A stretch of DNA of 64,000 nucleotides from Bacteroidota bacterium (lineage in GTDB: Bacteria; Bacteroidota; Bacteroidia; CAILMK01; JAAYUY01): NCBI GenBank assembly GCA_016776505.1, contig JADHTG010000006.1:1-64000 (forward strand), in the 5' to 3' direction. Below, piece by piece: positions 45,865 to 56,917 of this stretch (positions are counted from its first letter, which is position 1; every line of letters starts with the position of its first letter). The notes under the pieces were generated by a model. That model saw nothing but the letters and a program-made list of their open reading frames with translations. It did no database searches and was not told the origin of the DNA. A program made the translations under genes and the position numbers.

Positions 45865-46587
45865 CTATTCGACACTCATACTGAAATCGCTGTCATGTTC
45901 ATTCGGATCCAGGTCAAATCCCATCCGCTTGCCAGTTTTTAAGGCAATATTTCCGGTGGCCCGAATTTTTTCCAACAGAGTAATTTGCTGAATTGCATCA
46001 ATTGGCGGGGCAAAAAGATCAAACTCAACTGCCTGTGTAACTGCAGATTCTACTATGGATCTGACAGCAGATGCATTTAAAATAAGGCGGGAGAAATCCC
46101 GGTGCAGGAAGCTGTATTGACGTTTTCCCTGCATAAAATAATGCCCATCTTTATTAATGAAAATTCTGCCTAATAAATAACCCAGGTCATTGACACGATT
46201 AAATTTAATTGAATCTGACAGGAAATTATAAATAAGAATCATTCCGCAATAAGCCCTGGAAGGATCTTTCTTCACATATTCTGTATTAAAAATAAAATGC
46301 TCAGGTTGGAAGGTAAATACATTGGAATGCATAATGAAAAATAAGGTATCTCCTGCAAATTTCATTTCCGTTTCATACTGCCCATGATCCTGGTAATGAA
46401 TATTTACATTTACTTCTTTTCGAAGAATGTATTCCTGAATCCATTCAGAAGCCAGTTTTAGTTCTGCTTTAATGAGGTCAAAAGCATTTGACGTATTTGA
46501 ATAAATATTTTGCTTCAAATCGGCTTTATTCAAAAAGGCTTCTAAAATCTTACTTTCCTGAGGTAATGGTTCCAGTTTATTTTCCAT
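45865..46587 (-). CDS. Conserved-looking protein of unknown function downstream of proS
   Basis: The open frame reaches ATG 46620, inside the end of proS, but the Met at 46587 (start MENKLEPLPQES, 240 residues, 10 bases after the proS stop) is the better start. A soluble alpha/beta-looking protein without signal or membrane helices. Recognisable but unassigned stretches: AELKLASEWIQEYILRKEVN, GQYETEMKFAGDTLFFIMHS, NDLGYLLGRIFINKDGHYFM and a C-terminal acidic tail. I do not recognise the family. The proS pairing suggests an operon only. Confidence 0.75.
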   Translation of the reverse strand: MENKLEPLPQESKILEAFLNKADLKQNIYSNTSNAFDLIKAELKLASEWIQEYILRKEVNVNIHYQDHGQYETEMKFAGDTLFFIMHSNVFTFQPEHFIFNTEYVKKDPSRAYCGMILIYNFLSDSIKFNRVNDLGYLLGRIFINKDGHYFMQGKRQYSFLHRDFSRLILNASAVRSIVESAVTQAVEFDLFAPPIDAIQQITLLEKIRATGNIALKTGKRMGFDLDPNEHDSDFSMSVE

Positions 46588-46597
46588 GCATTTTTTT

Positions 46598-48073
46598 TTA
46601 ATATGCTTTAGCAAAAACAACTTTGTGTTTTGCAGGCTTAGCTGAATAAATACATTTTCCTTCTATCTTTTCTTCATCCAATGGAATAAACCTGATAGTA
46701 GCTTTGGTTTCTTCCTTAATTTTTAGTTCAGTTTCAGTGGTTCCATCCCAATTTGCCCAAATAAAGCCAGCATTGCTATCTATTAAGCTTTTCAGTTCAT
46801 CATAAGTATTAGCGTAATGCGTGTTGTCTTCCCTGAATTTCAAGGCTTTATTGAATATATTTTGCTGGATTTCGGGCAAAAGTTTCGAAATATATTCACC
46901 GATATTATCAGCAGAAACCAATTCTTTAGCCAGTGTGTCCCTTCTGAATAACTCAACGCTGTTATTTTTTACATCTTTTGGTCCAATACCGATTCGCAAT
47001 GGAATTCCTTTCAGTTCATACTCTGCAAATTTCCATCCGGGTTTTTTGTTATCGTCCTGATCGTACTTAGCGGAAATCTTCAGAGCTTTAAGTTCATTAA
47101 CAATTCGTTCAGCTACATCATTTACTACAACTCTTTCATCTTCAGATTTATATATCGGGACAATCACCACCTTGATAGGGGCAATTGAAGGTGGAAGTAC
47201 CAGTCCCAGGTCGTCTGAGTGAGTCATGATCAAGCCTCCGATCAAGCGTGTGGAAACACCCCATGAGGTAGCCCAGACCAGTTCCTGTTTTCCTTCTTTG
47301 GTTTGGAATTTAACGTCAAAAGCTTTCGCAAAATTCTGTCCCAGAAAATGCGATGTACCAGCTTGAAGTGATTTTCCATCCTGCATCAAGGCTTCAATGC
47401 AATAAGTATCTATTGCACCGGCAAATCTCTCATTAATTGATTTCAAGCCTTTATGAACCGGGATGGCCAGAAAGTTTTCAGCAAAATCAGCATATAAATC
47501 CAAAATGAGTTTTGATTCATCGATTGCTTCCTGTTTTGAAGCATGTGCGGTATGGCCTTCCTGCCATAAGAACTCAGTCGTTCGAAGAAATAAGCGTGTT
47601 CTCATTTCCCATCGTACGATATTGGCCCACTGGTTTATTAATAAAGGCAAGTCCCTGTACGATTGGATCCAGTTTTTATAAGTATTCCAGATAATTGTTT
47701 CTGAAGTGGGGCGTACAATTAATTCTTCTTCAAGCTTCGCCTCAGGATCAACAACCACTTCCTTCCCATCAGCAGAAGATTTAAGACGATAATGGGTTAC
47801 CACAGCACATTCTTTCGCGAAGCCTTCCACATGAGCTGCTTCCTTGCTTAAAAATGATTTGGGTACAAAAAGAGGGAAATAAGCATTTTGATGACCTGTT
47901 TCTTTGAAACGTAAATTTAATTCTGTTTGGATGTTCTCCCAAAGTGCAAATCCATAGGGTTTGATAACCATGCATCCCTTAACTGCTGAATGCTCAGCTA
48001 ATTCAGCCTCTTTTACTATATCATTATACCATATAGAGTAATCTTCACTTCGCTTCGTAATCTTCTTTCCCAT
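46598..48073 (-). CDS. proS: Prolyl-tRNA synthetase (archaeal/eukaryotic-type)
   Basis: Charges tRNA-Pro. Class II motifs are visible: [15 protein letters not shown] (motif 2 region), [20 protein letters not shown], and [20 protein letters not shown] (motif 3). The 491 residues, the absence of the INS editing domain, and the C-terminal Tyr (AKAY) identify the archaeal/eukaryotic-type ProRS used by Bacteroidota and Thermus, not the E. coli type. The C-terminal Tyr is known to reach into the active site in this group. Followed 10 bases later by a gene of unknown function. Confidence 0.96.
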
Positions 48074-48081
48074 TCTTTCGG

Positions 48082-48089
48082 TATATTTG
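48082..48089 (+). promoter_or_regulatory. Candidate -7 element for the Tyr/Ser-rich lipoprotein
   Basis: TATATTTG on the plus strand, exact TAnnTTTG, 72 bases upstream of ATG 48162 in the gap divergent from proS. Confidence 0.35.
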
Positions 48090-48116
48090 GAATAGTTTTT
48101 GTTTTTTATATAACAG

Positions 48117-48124
48117 CAAAGATA
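48117..48124 (-). promoter_or_regulatory. Candidate -7 element for proS
   Basis: Reads TATCTTTG on the minus strand, an exact TAnnTTTG match, 43 bases upstream of the proS ATG. Confidence 0.42.
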
Positions 48125-48161
48125 AAAATTATTTATTGAGCATAATTAAATATACATAGTC

Positions 48162-49919
48162 ATGAAAACATTAAAAATAATCTCCGCACTGTTCTTCACA
48201 GGTTTAATAATTAGTAGCTGTACGAACACAAAGAACTTAACTTCTTATGATGATGTGTATTATGATCCATCAGATGCGAGCGAAGTAGTGGTGGTTGAAA
48301 AAGAGGTGATTATTGAGAAAGAAAAGCCCGTCACTAACATTCAAGCCGATCAGGTTGAAGAAGATGTGTATGATGAGTATTATGATGAGAGCGAATCAGA
48401 TTATTACAGGGATGAGGACGGGGATACTTATATAACGAATAATTATTATGGAAATACAAACACTTATGATGATTATGATTATTATGATTATGATTATTCG
48501 TATTCCCGCAGAATAAGGAGATTCCATCACCATTATTCTTTATTTAGCTACTATGATCCTTTCTTCTATAATCCTTACTGGTACAATCCGTATTATGGCG
48601 GATGGGGCTTTGGCTTTTCCATGCATTACGGTTATGGATATCCATATTATTATCCATACTATTATGGTTCTTATTATCATAGTTATGGATTTTACAATCA
48701 TTTTCATTACAATCCATGGCATTATGGTTATTCTCATTATGGTTACAATCCTTATTCATGGGGATACAACCAGGGGTATAATCACGGCTACTGGGATGGA
48801 TATAGTTATCACTATGATTACGATAAAAACAATCCTATTGCTTCAGGATCGACATATTATGGTCCACGGCAGGGTGTTGGGAGTCATGTCTCCAGCCGGG
48901 ATGTCAGGACTGAAGAATATTTTGGTTCCAGGAGAGAAACTGAAGATCCAAAGACATCTGTTAACAACTCAAGCAGGGGAACGGGTGTATCCACATCAGG
49001 TGCTACAATGTCTACAGGCAGCGGTTCATATACGAGAACAGCCACCCAGAAAGATCCGGATAAAACCCGCGACAATATAAATGAAAGAGTTACTGTTGAT
49101 AATAAATCAGTTGAATCTCCGACAGGCTCAACTTCTGTAAAACAGGGATCCACTTCGGCTACCAAAACCAATGTAGGTGCAGGAACTGTTAACAGGGATG
49201 AAATTAATAGCAATAATTCGGTTAGAACACAACCTCAATCTGGAACATCCAATTCAACAAAGGTCGGTGGGGATGATGTGAACAGGACAAATCAGGCAAC
49301 TACGAAAGATGTGAGTACCAAAACAGACAACAACTCCACTAGAGTAATTAAAGAAAATTCATCCACCAGGGGTACTAATTATACCAGGACAGAATCTGCA
49401 ACAAAGAGCACAGGAACGACAAAAAGTAGTACAACTACAAGAACATATACCAGGCCTCAGGGCAGCAGTTCAGGCACAAAGAATTATCAAAAAGGAAGCT
49501 CCGGAACCAGGCCAAACACTCAGACAACCAGACCAGGAACGTCTACTAATCGAAATTATTCAAGTCCTTCAAGAGGATCAGAAAATAAATCTAAAGGGAC
49601 ATATACTGCCCCCAAAAGGAGTTCAAGTACTTCACCAGGCAGAAGTTCAAGTTCATCTGCTACCAGAAGTTATTCCAAACCCAGTTCCAGTAGTAAAAGT
49701 TATTCATCACCTAATACTTCCAACAGAAGCTCCTCCTCCTCCTCCAGATCCTATTCCAGTCCCAGTAGAAGTAGCAGTAGCGGAAATAGTTCGAGATCTT
49801 ATTCTTCACCAAGTAGAAGTTCAAGTTCAAGTACCAGAAGTTCATCATCTGGCTCAAGTAGTTCAAGAAGTTCAAGTAGTTCGTCGTCTTCAAGGAGTAG
49901 TTCTCCAAACAGACGATAA
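48162..49919 (+). CDS. Low-complexity lipoprotein: acidic, Tyr-rich, then Ser/Thr/Arg-rich
   Basis: Lipobox ISSC gives lipidated Cys20. Beyond it the 585 residues fall into compositional zones: acidic 21-110 with an EYYDESESDYYRDEDGD stretch; a Tyr/His/Asn/Gly-rich zone about 125-235 (for example NPYYGGWGFGFSMHYGYGYP); then 350 residues dominated by Ser, Thr, Arg, Gly and Asn, ending in tandem SSSRSYSSPSRS-like units. No enzyme domain is visible. It should sit on the outer membrane or outer surface, with a largely disordered, sticky chain. Its operon partners (15 and 9 bases) are the FadL-like barrel and a HAD phosphatase. Function unknown; adhesive, matrix or stress protein are possible. Confidence 0.88.
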   Translation: MKTLKIISALFFTGLIISSCTNTKNLTSYDDVYYDPSDASEVVVVEKEVIIEKEKPVTNIQADQVEEDVYDEYYDESESDYYRDEDGDTYITNNYYGNTNTYDDYDYYDYDYSYSRRIRRFHHHYSLFSYYDPFFYNPYWYNPYYGGWGFGFSMHYGYGYPYYYPYYYGSYYHSYGFYNHFHYNPWHYGYSHYGYNPYSWGYNQGYNHGYWDGYSYHYDYDKNNPIASGSTYYGPRQGVGSHVSSRDVRTEEYFGSRRETEDPKTSVNNSSRGTGVSTSGATMSTGSGSYTRTATQKDPDKTRDNINERVTVDNKSVESPTGSTSVKQGSTSATKTNVGAGTVNRDEINSNNSVRTQPQSGTSNSTKVGGDDVNRTNQATTKDVSTKTDNNSTRVIKENSSTRGTNYTRTESATKSTGTTKSSTTTRTYTRPQGSSSGTKNYQKGSSGTRPNTQTTRPGTSTNRNYSSPSRGSENKSKGTYTAPKRSSSTSPGRSSSSSATRSYSKPSSSSKSYSSPNTSNRSSSSSSRSYSSPSRSSSSGNSSRSYSSPSRSSSSSTRSSSSGSSSSRSSSSSSSSRSSSPNRR

Positions 49920-55972: not shown

Positions 55973-56917
55973 TTATCGCAAGAAATAAATATAACCTACA
56001 TAAACCCCCATCCCGGTGTTTCTCAGGTCTATTTTTGTTCTTCTTTCAACCCTGTAAAAATTGTTTGCTGCAATAGTAACAGGTACTCCATTTGTTACCG
56101 GAAATGATGAAAAAAGAAAATCGACATCATTGAAATAAGTTTTGTCGATGGTTAAAAGGCCCATAGAATATCTTCCATCTACGGTAAATTTAGAATTCTC
56201 AGAAACTTCAATACTAAAACCGATTCCAGCTGTAATACCTGCGTCAATTGCATTTAAGCCTGAAATTGAAGGATAATTTGGAACATCATTACTGAAAAAA
56301 TCTTCATTGTATGTAGAATCCGTTCTTGTAATTGTAACATTTTGTCCCATGAAAAATGAAGTAGAATCATAATTTGTTTCCGTGCCTGGAGTTGTTATTC
56401 CATCCTTTGTTATATCTCTTGTTCTAAGCACCTTCATTTTTGTGGATGAACCAAACCTGTACCCAAAATAGGGTCCAATGAAAATATCAAAATCTAATTT
56501 ACCTGTTTTTCTGTCATATGGAAATACACCTCCTCTGAGTGAAAATGATTTTTTTATTAAGAGGGGGATTTCCAGGTAAGATAGTTTTAACTCATTATCG
56601 TATTTCTTAATATCCAGGGTTGTAACAATGGTGTCAAATTCAGTAGTAGTTAATGTTTGCTGATGAGTGAAAAGCTGGTGAACACCTTTATCAATATAAA
56701 GGATCTCGGCTTGCAGGTTGAAATCAATTTTCAATTTATATCCCAAAATTGCACCAAATGAAGGAGCATTTAAATAGTTCATTCCTCCATAGGTATCTCC
56801 GGTTAATTTGTATCCGTTATACCCTCCAGTAACACCATAAAAAAATTGTGCTTGTGTACCCAGGCTAATTCCAAGAACAAATAAAGTAACGAATAATAGA
56901 ATTTTACTAATTTTCAT
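55973..56917 (-). CDS. Outer membrane beta-barrel protein (porin-like, OMP_b-brl family)
   Basis: 314 residues with a signal peptide (to about residue 23, TQAQ) and a one-domain barrel: FFYGVTGGYNGYKLTGD, FGAILGYKLKIDFNLQAEIL and LSYLEIPLLIKKSF are the classic N-terminal strands of the Bacteroidota PorT-like/OMP family, ending GVYVGYIYFLR. It follows gldJ by 29 bases, hence the T9SS/gliding operon. T9SS includes PorT-like barrels (SprT), but this one is not clearly PorT; annotate as barrel of unknown role. Confidence 0.85.
   Translation of the reverse strand: MKISKILLFVTLFVLGISLGTQAQFFYGVTGGYNGYKLTGDTYGGMNYLNAPSFGAILGYKLKIDFNLQAEILYIDKGVHQLFTHQQTLTTTEFDTIVTTLDIKKYDNELKLSYLEIPLLIKKSFSLRGGVFPYDRKTGKLDFDIFIGPYFGYRFGSSTKMKVLRTRDITKDGITTPGTETNYDSTSFFMGQNVTITRTDSTYNEDFFSNDVPNYPSISGLNAIDAGITAGIGFSIEVSENSKFTVDGRYSMGLLTIDKTYFNDVDFLFSSFPVTNGVPVTIAANNFYRVERRTKIDLRNTGMGVYVGYIYFLR

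Follow-up and report, generated by a model that had tools for sequence, protein, structure and literature searches.

A predicted lipoprotein family encoded beside a FadL-fold barrel in Bacteroidia: gene pairing, conserved motifs and a possible inward-facing envelope complex

For the FadL/TodX-type outer-membrane transporters of hydrophobic compounds, we know of no dedicated low-complexity lipoprotein. A barrel of this fold that is partnered with a lipoprotein is represented by BamG/BamH of the Bacteroidota BAM complex, in which, according to passages in two reports, the FadL-fold barrel holds the lipoprotein by its N-terminal tail (PMC12611786, PMC12578637). A lipoprotein gene near that of a FadL homologue also occurs in F. 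johnsoniae; the section of a study on TamL depletion dealing with this pair reports 5.6-fold (Fjoh_4941, FadL homologue) and 2.6-fold (Fjoh_4940, lipoprotein) increases in the outer-membrane fraction, and its authors consider that the proximity of both might indicate a functional link (PMC12045153). The same section gives a lowered level of Fjoh_4941 (0.4-fold) in outer-membrane vesicles (PMC12045153), a point against the complex preferred below.

The window, i.e., the 64,000-nucleotide stretch of DNA analyzed here, contains a similar arrangement of a predicted lipoprotein gene followed by a gene for a FadL-superfamily barrel, with proS on the opposite side (Table 1). The reading preferred in the following, at slightly less than an even chance, is a two-part outer-membrane complex, with the lipoprotein as dedicated subunit of the FadL-fold barrel, resembling BamG/BamH but facing inward.

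Table 1 Features of the lipoprotein–barrel locus in the window
Feature	Position	Strand	Basis
proS (prolyl-tRNA synthetase), divergent, conserved neighbour	46598..48073	-	TIGR00408 over cut-off
TATATTTG, possible -7 promoter element	48082..48089	+	sequence
Lipoprotein gene, 585 aa, ATG start	48162..49919	+	ORF listing, sequence, composition
Signal peptide and lipobox up to Cys20	48162..48221	+	sequence
DDVYY motif, residues 30-34	48249..48263	+	most conserved element past the lipid anchor
Predicted β-hairpin with TYITNNYY, strands 80-83 and 89-92	48396..48440	+	AlphaFold2; motif in relatives
Aromatic core with RIRRFH, residues 99-176	48456..48689	+	alignments A2, A6; shuffle controls
YYGPR motif, residues 232-236	48855..48869	+	YYG(P/H/Q)R in relatives, frequently preceded by NSYDxNS
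Long Ser/Thr/Arg tail with four SYS units and Arg-Arg end	48897..49916	+	composition
Partner gene for an outer-membrane barrel of the FadL superfamily, 488 aa	49935..51401	+	sequence profile, fold match

The product of the lipoprotein gene starts with a signal peptide (MKTLKIISALFFTGLIISS), followed by C20 and matching the lipobox motif of bacterial lipoproteins (ISSC, residues 17–20). Residues 20–113 are acidic (28 D/E among 94 residues, net charge -23), residues 114–245 are rich in Y (28.0 %), G (13.6 %) and H (9.1 %), residues 246–440 in T (21.0 %) and S (15.9 %), and residues 441–585 in S (49.0 %) and R (11.7 %), the latter stretch having a net charge of +22. Hence, sequence and composition confirm the reading frame, the lipobox and the three zones of the original prediction; its description of all three zones as low complexity needs correction for the middle one, which is a conserved sequence module beyond generic low complexity, with a core profile that outscores shuffled sequences (see below). 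The order of the zones, which the original prediction proposed to check in relatives, is kept: of 151 family members, 89 % have a negative net charge over the 80 residues behind the anchor, and all 151 a positive one over the last 80. The predicted tandem SRSYSSPS-like units are real as well, since the tail carries four [RK]SYS[SK]P units (at residues 502, 512, 529 and 545), a number reached by none of 10,000 tail shuffles. Repetition resides at the protein level, because the serines of the tail draw on all six codons (AGT 27, TCA 18, TCC 11, TCT 8, AGC 4 and TCG 3) and Tandem Repeats Finder detects only short arrays in the DNA (top score 63). A single copy of the lipoprotein was found in its own genome.

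The protein is not an orphan, but belongs to a family without Pfam match (0 of the 67 members scanned), which makes this family invisible to Pfam annotation. NCBIfam matches one of the 67 (PspC), which looks like shared composition, and the only chain obtained from solved structures with the lipoprotein profile, a splicing factor (CWF21, E 0.0027), is read in the same way. Neither database holds a model matching the window lipoprotein, in agreement with the earlier statement that no characterised counterpart is known; databases may have overlooked the family on account of its low-complexity appearance. "Vitellogenin II", presumably a label in use for such flavobacterial proteins, led only to two chicken papers in the open-licence literature. 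The family is spread over the class of the window, taken to be Bacteroidia from the names of the family records (Bacteroidales, Flavobacteriales, Chitinophaga, Sphingobacteriales and similar; one Chlorobiota, L167). A protein search of 60 relative genomes retrieved relatives of the lipoprotein from 20 and of the neighbouring barrel from 50; in the fetched loci, proS and the barrel gene nearly always enclose a gene for this kind of protein, including loci in which the sequence search fails. The core profile matches 101 of 198 class genomes and 5 of the 196 genomes of a phylum sample (all five within the class), counts which support an absence of the family from other classes only weakly, since this profile misses members revealed by synteny (it reaches only 2 of 38 in the core-negative group L182–L221).

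Of 171 loci examined jointly, 158 gave a match to the barrel profile, and in 153 an ORF was called no more than 400 nt upstream. Two of these ORFs were dropped, L070 as spurious and L209 because its frame is wrong and a contig end truncates it, leaving 151 for the counts of composition, proS and export signal, and in a few others the start is misjudged (e.g., L113, L127, L135, L186 and L219). In 137 of the 151 pair loci, the lipoprotein gene is located between divergent proS and the barrel gene. The proS gene was found in 141 loci, divergent in each of them and within 400 nt in 137; eight loci with at least 1.5 kb of upstream sequence have the pair and no proS, and two further ones showed too little sequence. 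The median gap between the lipoprotein and barrel genes is 35 nt, and in the window the barrel gene begins 15 nt past the lipoprotein stop codon, bearing out the predicted co-encoding of the lipoprotein with a FadL-like barrel.

Among the 89 loci chosen by the barrel (L051–L099 and L182–L221, of which the last 40 stem from genomes missed by the core profile), 84 have an upstream ORF within 400 nt (including L070 and L209), two are cut by a contig end (L065, L066), and three show upstream sequence and no adjacent lipoprotein gene (L061, L182, L220). Conversely, the barrel adjoins in 68 of the 81 loci chosen by the lipoprotein (L100 and L102–L181); 11 of the other 13 reach a contig end, and L163 and L175 have downstream sequence in view and no adjacent barrel gene. 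This retention of both genes side by side in most sampled members of the class suggests that barrel and lipoprotein work together in the outer membrane, and a gene pair kept at a single locus to this extent usually serves something basic.

If the barrel were a mere chromosomal neighbour, the lipoprotein might be a periplasmic tether or filler, with its tail binding peptidoglycan or phosphate-rich lipid electrostatically. Such a role would suit the invariably positive tail and the loci in which one gene lacks the other (L163 and L175; L061, L182 and L220), but it leaves unexplained the short co-directional gap between both genes as well as the behaviour of those 10 barrel-chosen loci that have enough upstream sequence and no proS in view: the pair is kept in seven (L052, L067, L197, L204, L207, L208, L213) and not in three (L061, L182, L220). 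A comparison of protein distances across 94 loci is in its favour, since co-variation of the lipoprotein with the barrel (partial correlation given proS, 0.263; reached by 0 of 1,000 permutations) does not go beyond that with proS (0.316 given the barrel). Shared descent may therefore explain the agreement in distances, and co-evolution with the barrel was set aside as support for a joint function. On balance, a tether independent of the barrel is rather unlikely. Five genomes of family f15 (G022, G289, G317, G343, G369) show no or weak matches to the barrel and to this type of proS, and the entire locus seems to be missing from them.

The export signal of Bacteroidota surface lipoproteins is placed at +2 to +6 by the text of a study on this signal, which also describes the position as critical (PMC5080379). 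A lipobox was recognized by pattern in 131 of 153 members. Another 14 have an SPase I-like signal without lipobox, so lipidation would not be strictly needed. Two members (L197, L204) have no lipobox, a C-terminal His after KPS instead of Arg, and no proS in view. Across the 131 lipobox members, acidic residues at +2 to +6 average 0.12, and no member reaches two of them there or at +2 to +7; in the latter range 114 have none. The conserved Asp pair of the family is found further downstream at about +11 to +14. By the same measure, 0 of 10 BamD controls carry two such residues (lipobox pattern in 10 of 28, with at least L266 apparently mis-parsed), and SusD controls have them in 3 of 7 cases at +2 to +6 and in 6 of 7 at +2 to +7; the latter set is small as well (lipobox pattern in 7 of 11 loci, L255 and L262 below the Pfam cut-off) and was drawn from other families, since no SusD match occurs in the genome of the window. 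With the known surface-export signal absent, a periplasm-facing anchor of the lipoprotein is more likely as judged from the N-termini, and surface location was given up as the default. The lack of the acidic residues that BamH-K have behind the Cys, and the mostly disordered model, set the window lipoprotein apart from them.

The cell-surface role assigned in the original prediction is thus not supported. An adhesive or condensate-forming surface layer along these lines would be anchored by lipid, with Tyr and Arg as stickers and Ser and Gly as spacers. The preserved charge separation, the Tyr-rich middle and the Arg-rich tail would be compatible with such a layer, as would the extent of predicted disorder (474 of 585 residues below pLDDT 50 in the AlphaFold2 model of the lipoprotein alone, mean pLDDT 45.9). 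Nevertheless, it is improbable, given the export-signal counts and conserved motifs whose fixed positions exceed what a sticker-spacer grammar needs; for adhesion, mineral binding or phase separation, composition was the only pointer found.

These motifs form a series in the alignments, DD(V/I)YY, GNTY(V/I)TNNYY, DYYDYxYxxRIRRFH, YYTNxYWY and NSYDxNSxYYG(P/H/Q)R. The first of them recurs as DDxY in 139 of 153 members at a median of 12 residues beyond the anchor, D30 being the sole invariant column in alignment A4 (67 sequences). A looser pattern for the hairpin matches 35 of 153 members. With the core profile, 106 of the 153 score above 20 and 107 above 10, a value exceeded by none of 765 whole-protein and none of 1,070 local shuffles; the shuffles and not the match count serve as control, because many scored members belong to the 38 seed sequences or were picked by the core pattern. 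The core is common, but not universal across the family. A strict YYGPR-type pattern was found in 48 of 106 core-positive members, among which the match in the tail of L141 is probably due to chance, and in 5 of the 45 core-negative ones; a relaxed pattern that also accepts H, Q or R at the P position occurs in 81 of 151. Finally, the C-terminus is Arg in 125 of 151 members (the same 125 among 153), and Arg or Lys is among the last four residues in 149 of 153 (147 of 151 after dropping two ORFs). Arg occupies position -1 in 83 %, -2 in 54 % and -3 in 41 % of the 151 members, compared to 7–9 % at -6 to -15.

Apart from the signal peptide, the sole confident element in the model of the lipoprotein alone is the hairpin (block 81–90, pLDDT 86). 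A read-through model, i.e., one run with the two genes of the window as a single chain and without inter-chain error, draws on a different and shallower alignment (33 vs 67 rows). Comparing both, pLDDT rises from 62 to 75 for the DDVYY block (31–40) and from 42 to 60 for the YYGPR block (231–240; block 221–230 gains 3), but falls from 86 to 52 for the hairpin block; the remaining lipoprotein blocks are level or lower, the barrel is confident and the tail of low confidence. This modest gain in one read-through model hints that DDVYY and YYGPR may touch the barrel. Moreover, four alignments of the read-through model to EspP barrel entries begin at model residues 237–239, corresponding to EspP 1003–1005, which we take to lie inside that barrel.

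RcsF provides a precedent for a lipoprotein threading through a barrel, and one may ask whether the Arg-ended tail passes in this manner through the lumen to the surface, with lipid and DDVYY staying periplasmic. The conserved C-terminal Arg and the starting points of the four EspP alignments would fit. However, threading to the surface is quite unlikely, considering the low confidence of the tail in the read-through model and the description, in a passage of the BamG literature, of FadL-family lumens as holding their own N-terminal tail (PMC12611786).

The window barrel has the FadL fold, as predicted by the model: residues 614–1079 of the read-through model align with FadL, TodX, TbuX, CymD, BamG and PorV chains at Z 24.9–31.2, and Foldseek gives a best E of 5.1e-15. 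By sequence, the barrel profile matches a FadL homologue (5.5e-8), TbuX (2.1e-7) and PorV (0.00027). Pfam Toluene_X matches 13 of 44 barrel family members at E up to 0.01, though not the window barrel itself. Further likeness to FadL/TodX transporters is found in the conserved N60-P61 and the nearly invariant A62 of the window barrel, resembling the NPA element that an entry for a FadL mutant mentions. Identity with BamG is ruled out: the BamG model (NCBIfam NF053685, 250-bit cut-off) does not match the window barrel at E up to 0.1, and the same genome encodes a separate BamG above this cut-off (G000:C102, 307.6 bits), which distinguishes the pair from BamG/BamH. PorV shares the fold (Z 26.0 to 6h3i_F), whereas the sequence match of the window barrel to its family (32.3 bits) remains far below the 90-bit cut-off.

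The distribution of the barrel dissociates from SprA. In the 198 class genomes, the barrel profile and SprA were each found in 191, these being different sets of genomes: strong barrels without SprA occur in G043, G050, G272 and G328 (in G043 and G050 together with the lipoprotein), and SprA without barrel match in G030, G034, G317, G322 and G325; the six f15 genomes listed all have SprA and no or only weak barrel matches. Since this dissociation runs both ways, the pair is not a regular part of type IX secretion, and it was rejected as a component of that system. An accessory role in type IX secretion or in the BAM machinery would find some basis in the weak family matches of barrel members to PorV (27 of 44) and BamG (4 of 44, best 3.4e-11) and in the fold shared with both; it is nevertheless very unlikely in view of the SprA distribution and the separate BamG.

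For the preferred two-part complex, the following arrangement may be envisaged. The lipid would anchor the lipoprotein in the inner leaflet of the outer membrane, facing the periplasm; the short DDVYY linker and, past the aromatic core, YYG(P/H/Q)R could hold it to the barrel; and the long, basic, Arg-ended disordered tail might reach into the periplasm or the barrel mouth. A more detailed form of this reading, in which a lipoprotein that faces inward and is mostly disordered would plug or thread its dedicated FadL-fold barrel by means of DDVYY, YYG(P/H/Q)R and the Arg-ended tail throughout the Bacteroidia, is doubtful. If a periplasm-facing complex of barrel and lipoprotein is formed, it would add a further FadL-fold scaffold to BamG and PorV in the Bacteroidota envelope, possibly with a role in outer-membrane upkeep.

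In this context, the Fjoh_4940/Fjoh_4941 pair resembles that of the window by description rather than by sequence comparison, as far as the relevant section of the TamL study goes (PMC12045153). Provided that they are orthologues, the pairing has already been remarked on in one species, and the locus would offer a way to study how the outer membrane responds when TamL is depleted (PMC12045153). Beyond this study, the open-licence literature yielded nothing on a proS linkage of Fjoh_4940, nor were class-wide conservation, motifs or missing export signal of the pair found there.

The region between proS and the lipoprotein gene (48074–48161 in the window) is a possible conserved divergent promoter region. 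Going by the consensus, TATATTTG may represent a Bacteroidota -7 element. Among the 150-nt stretches that precede the lipoprotein start in 141 loci, 51 contain TANNTTTG on the strand directed toward the lipoprotein gene (shuffles: mean 16.6, maximum 29) and 105 on the strand directed toward proS. Elsewhere in the window, an outer-membrane β-barrel is encoded at 55973–56917 (- strand; Pfam OMP_b-brl_2, 1.5e-16), with no link to the lipoprotein finding. Next to proS, a gene at 45865–46620 (- strand) encodes a 251-aa protein that neither Pfam nor NCBIfam matches at E up to 0.1 and for which tblastn gave matches in 30 of 50 class loci, making it an unnamed conserved neighbour.
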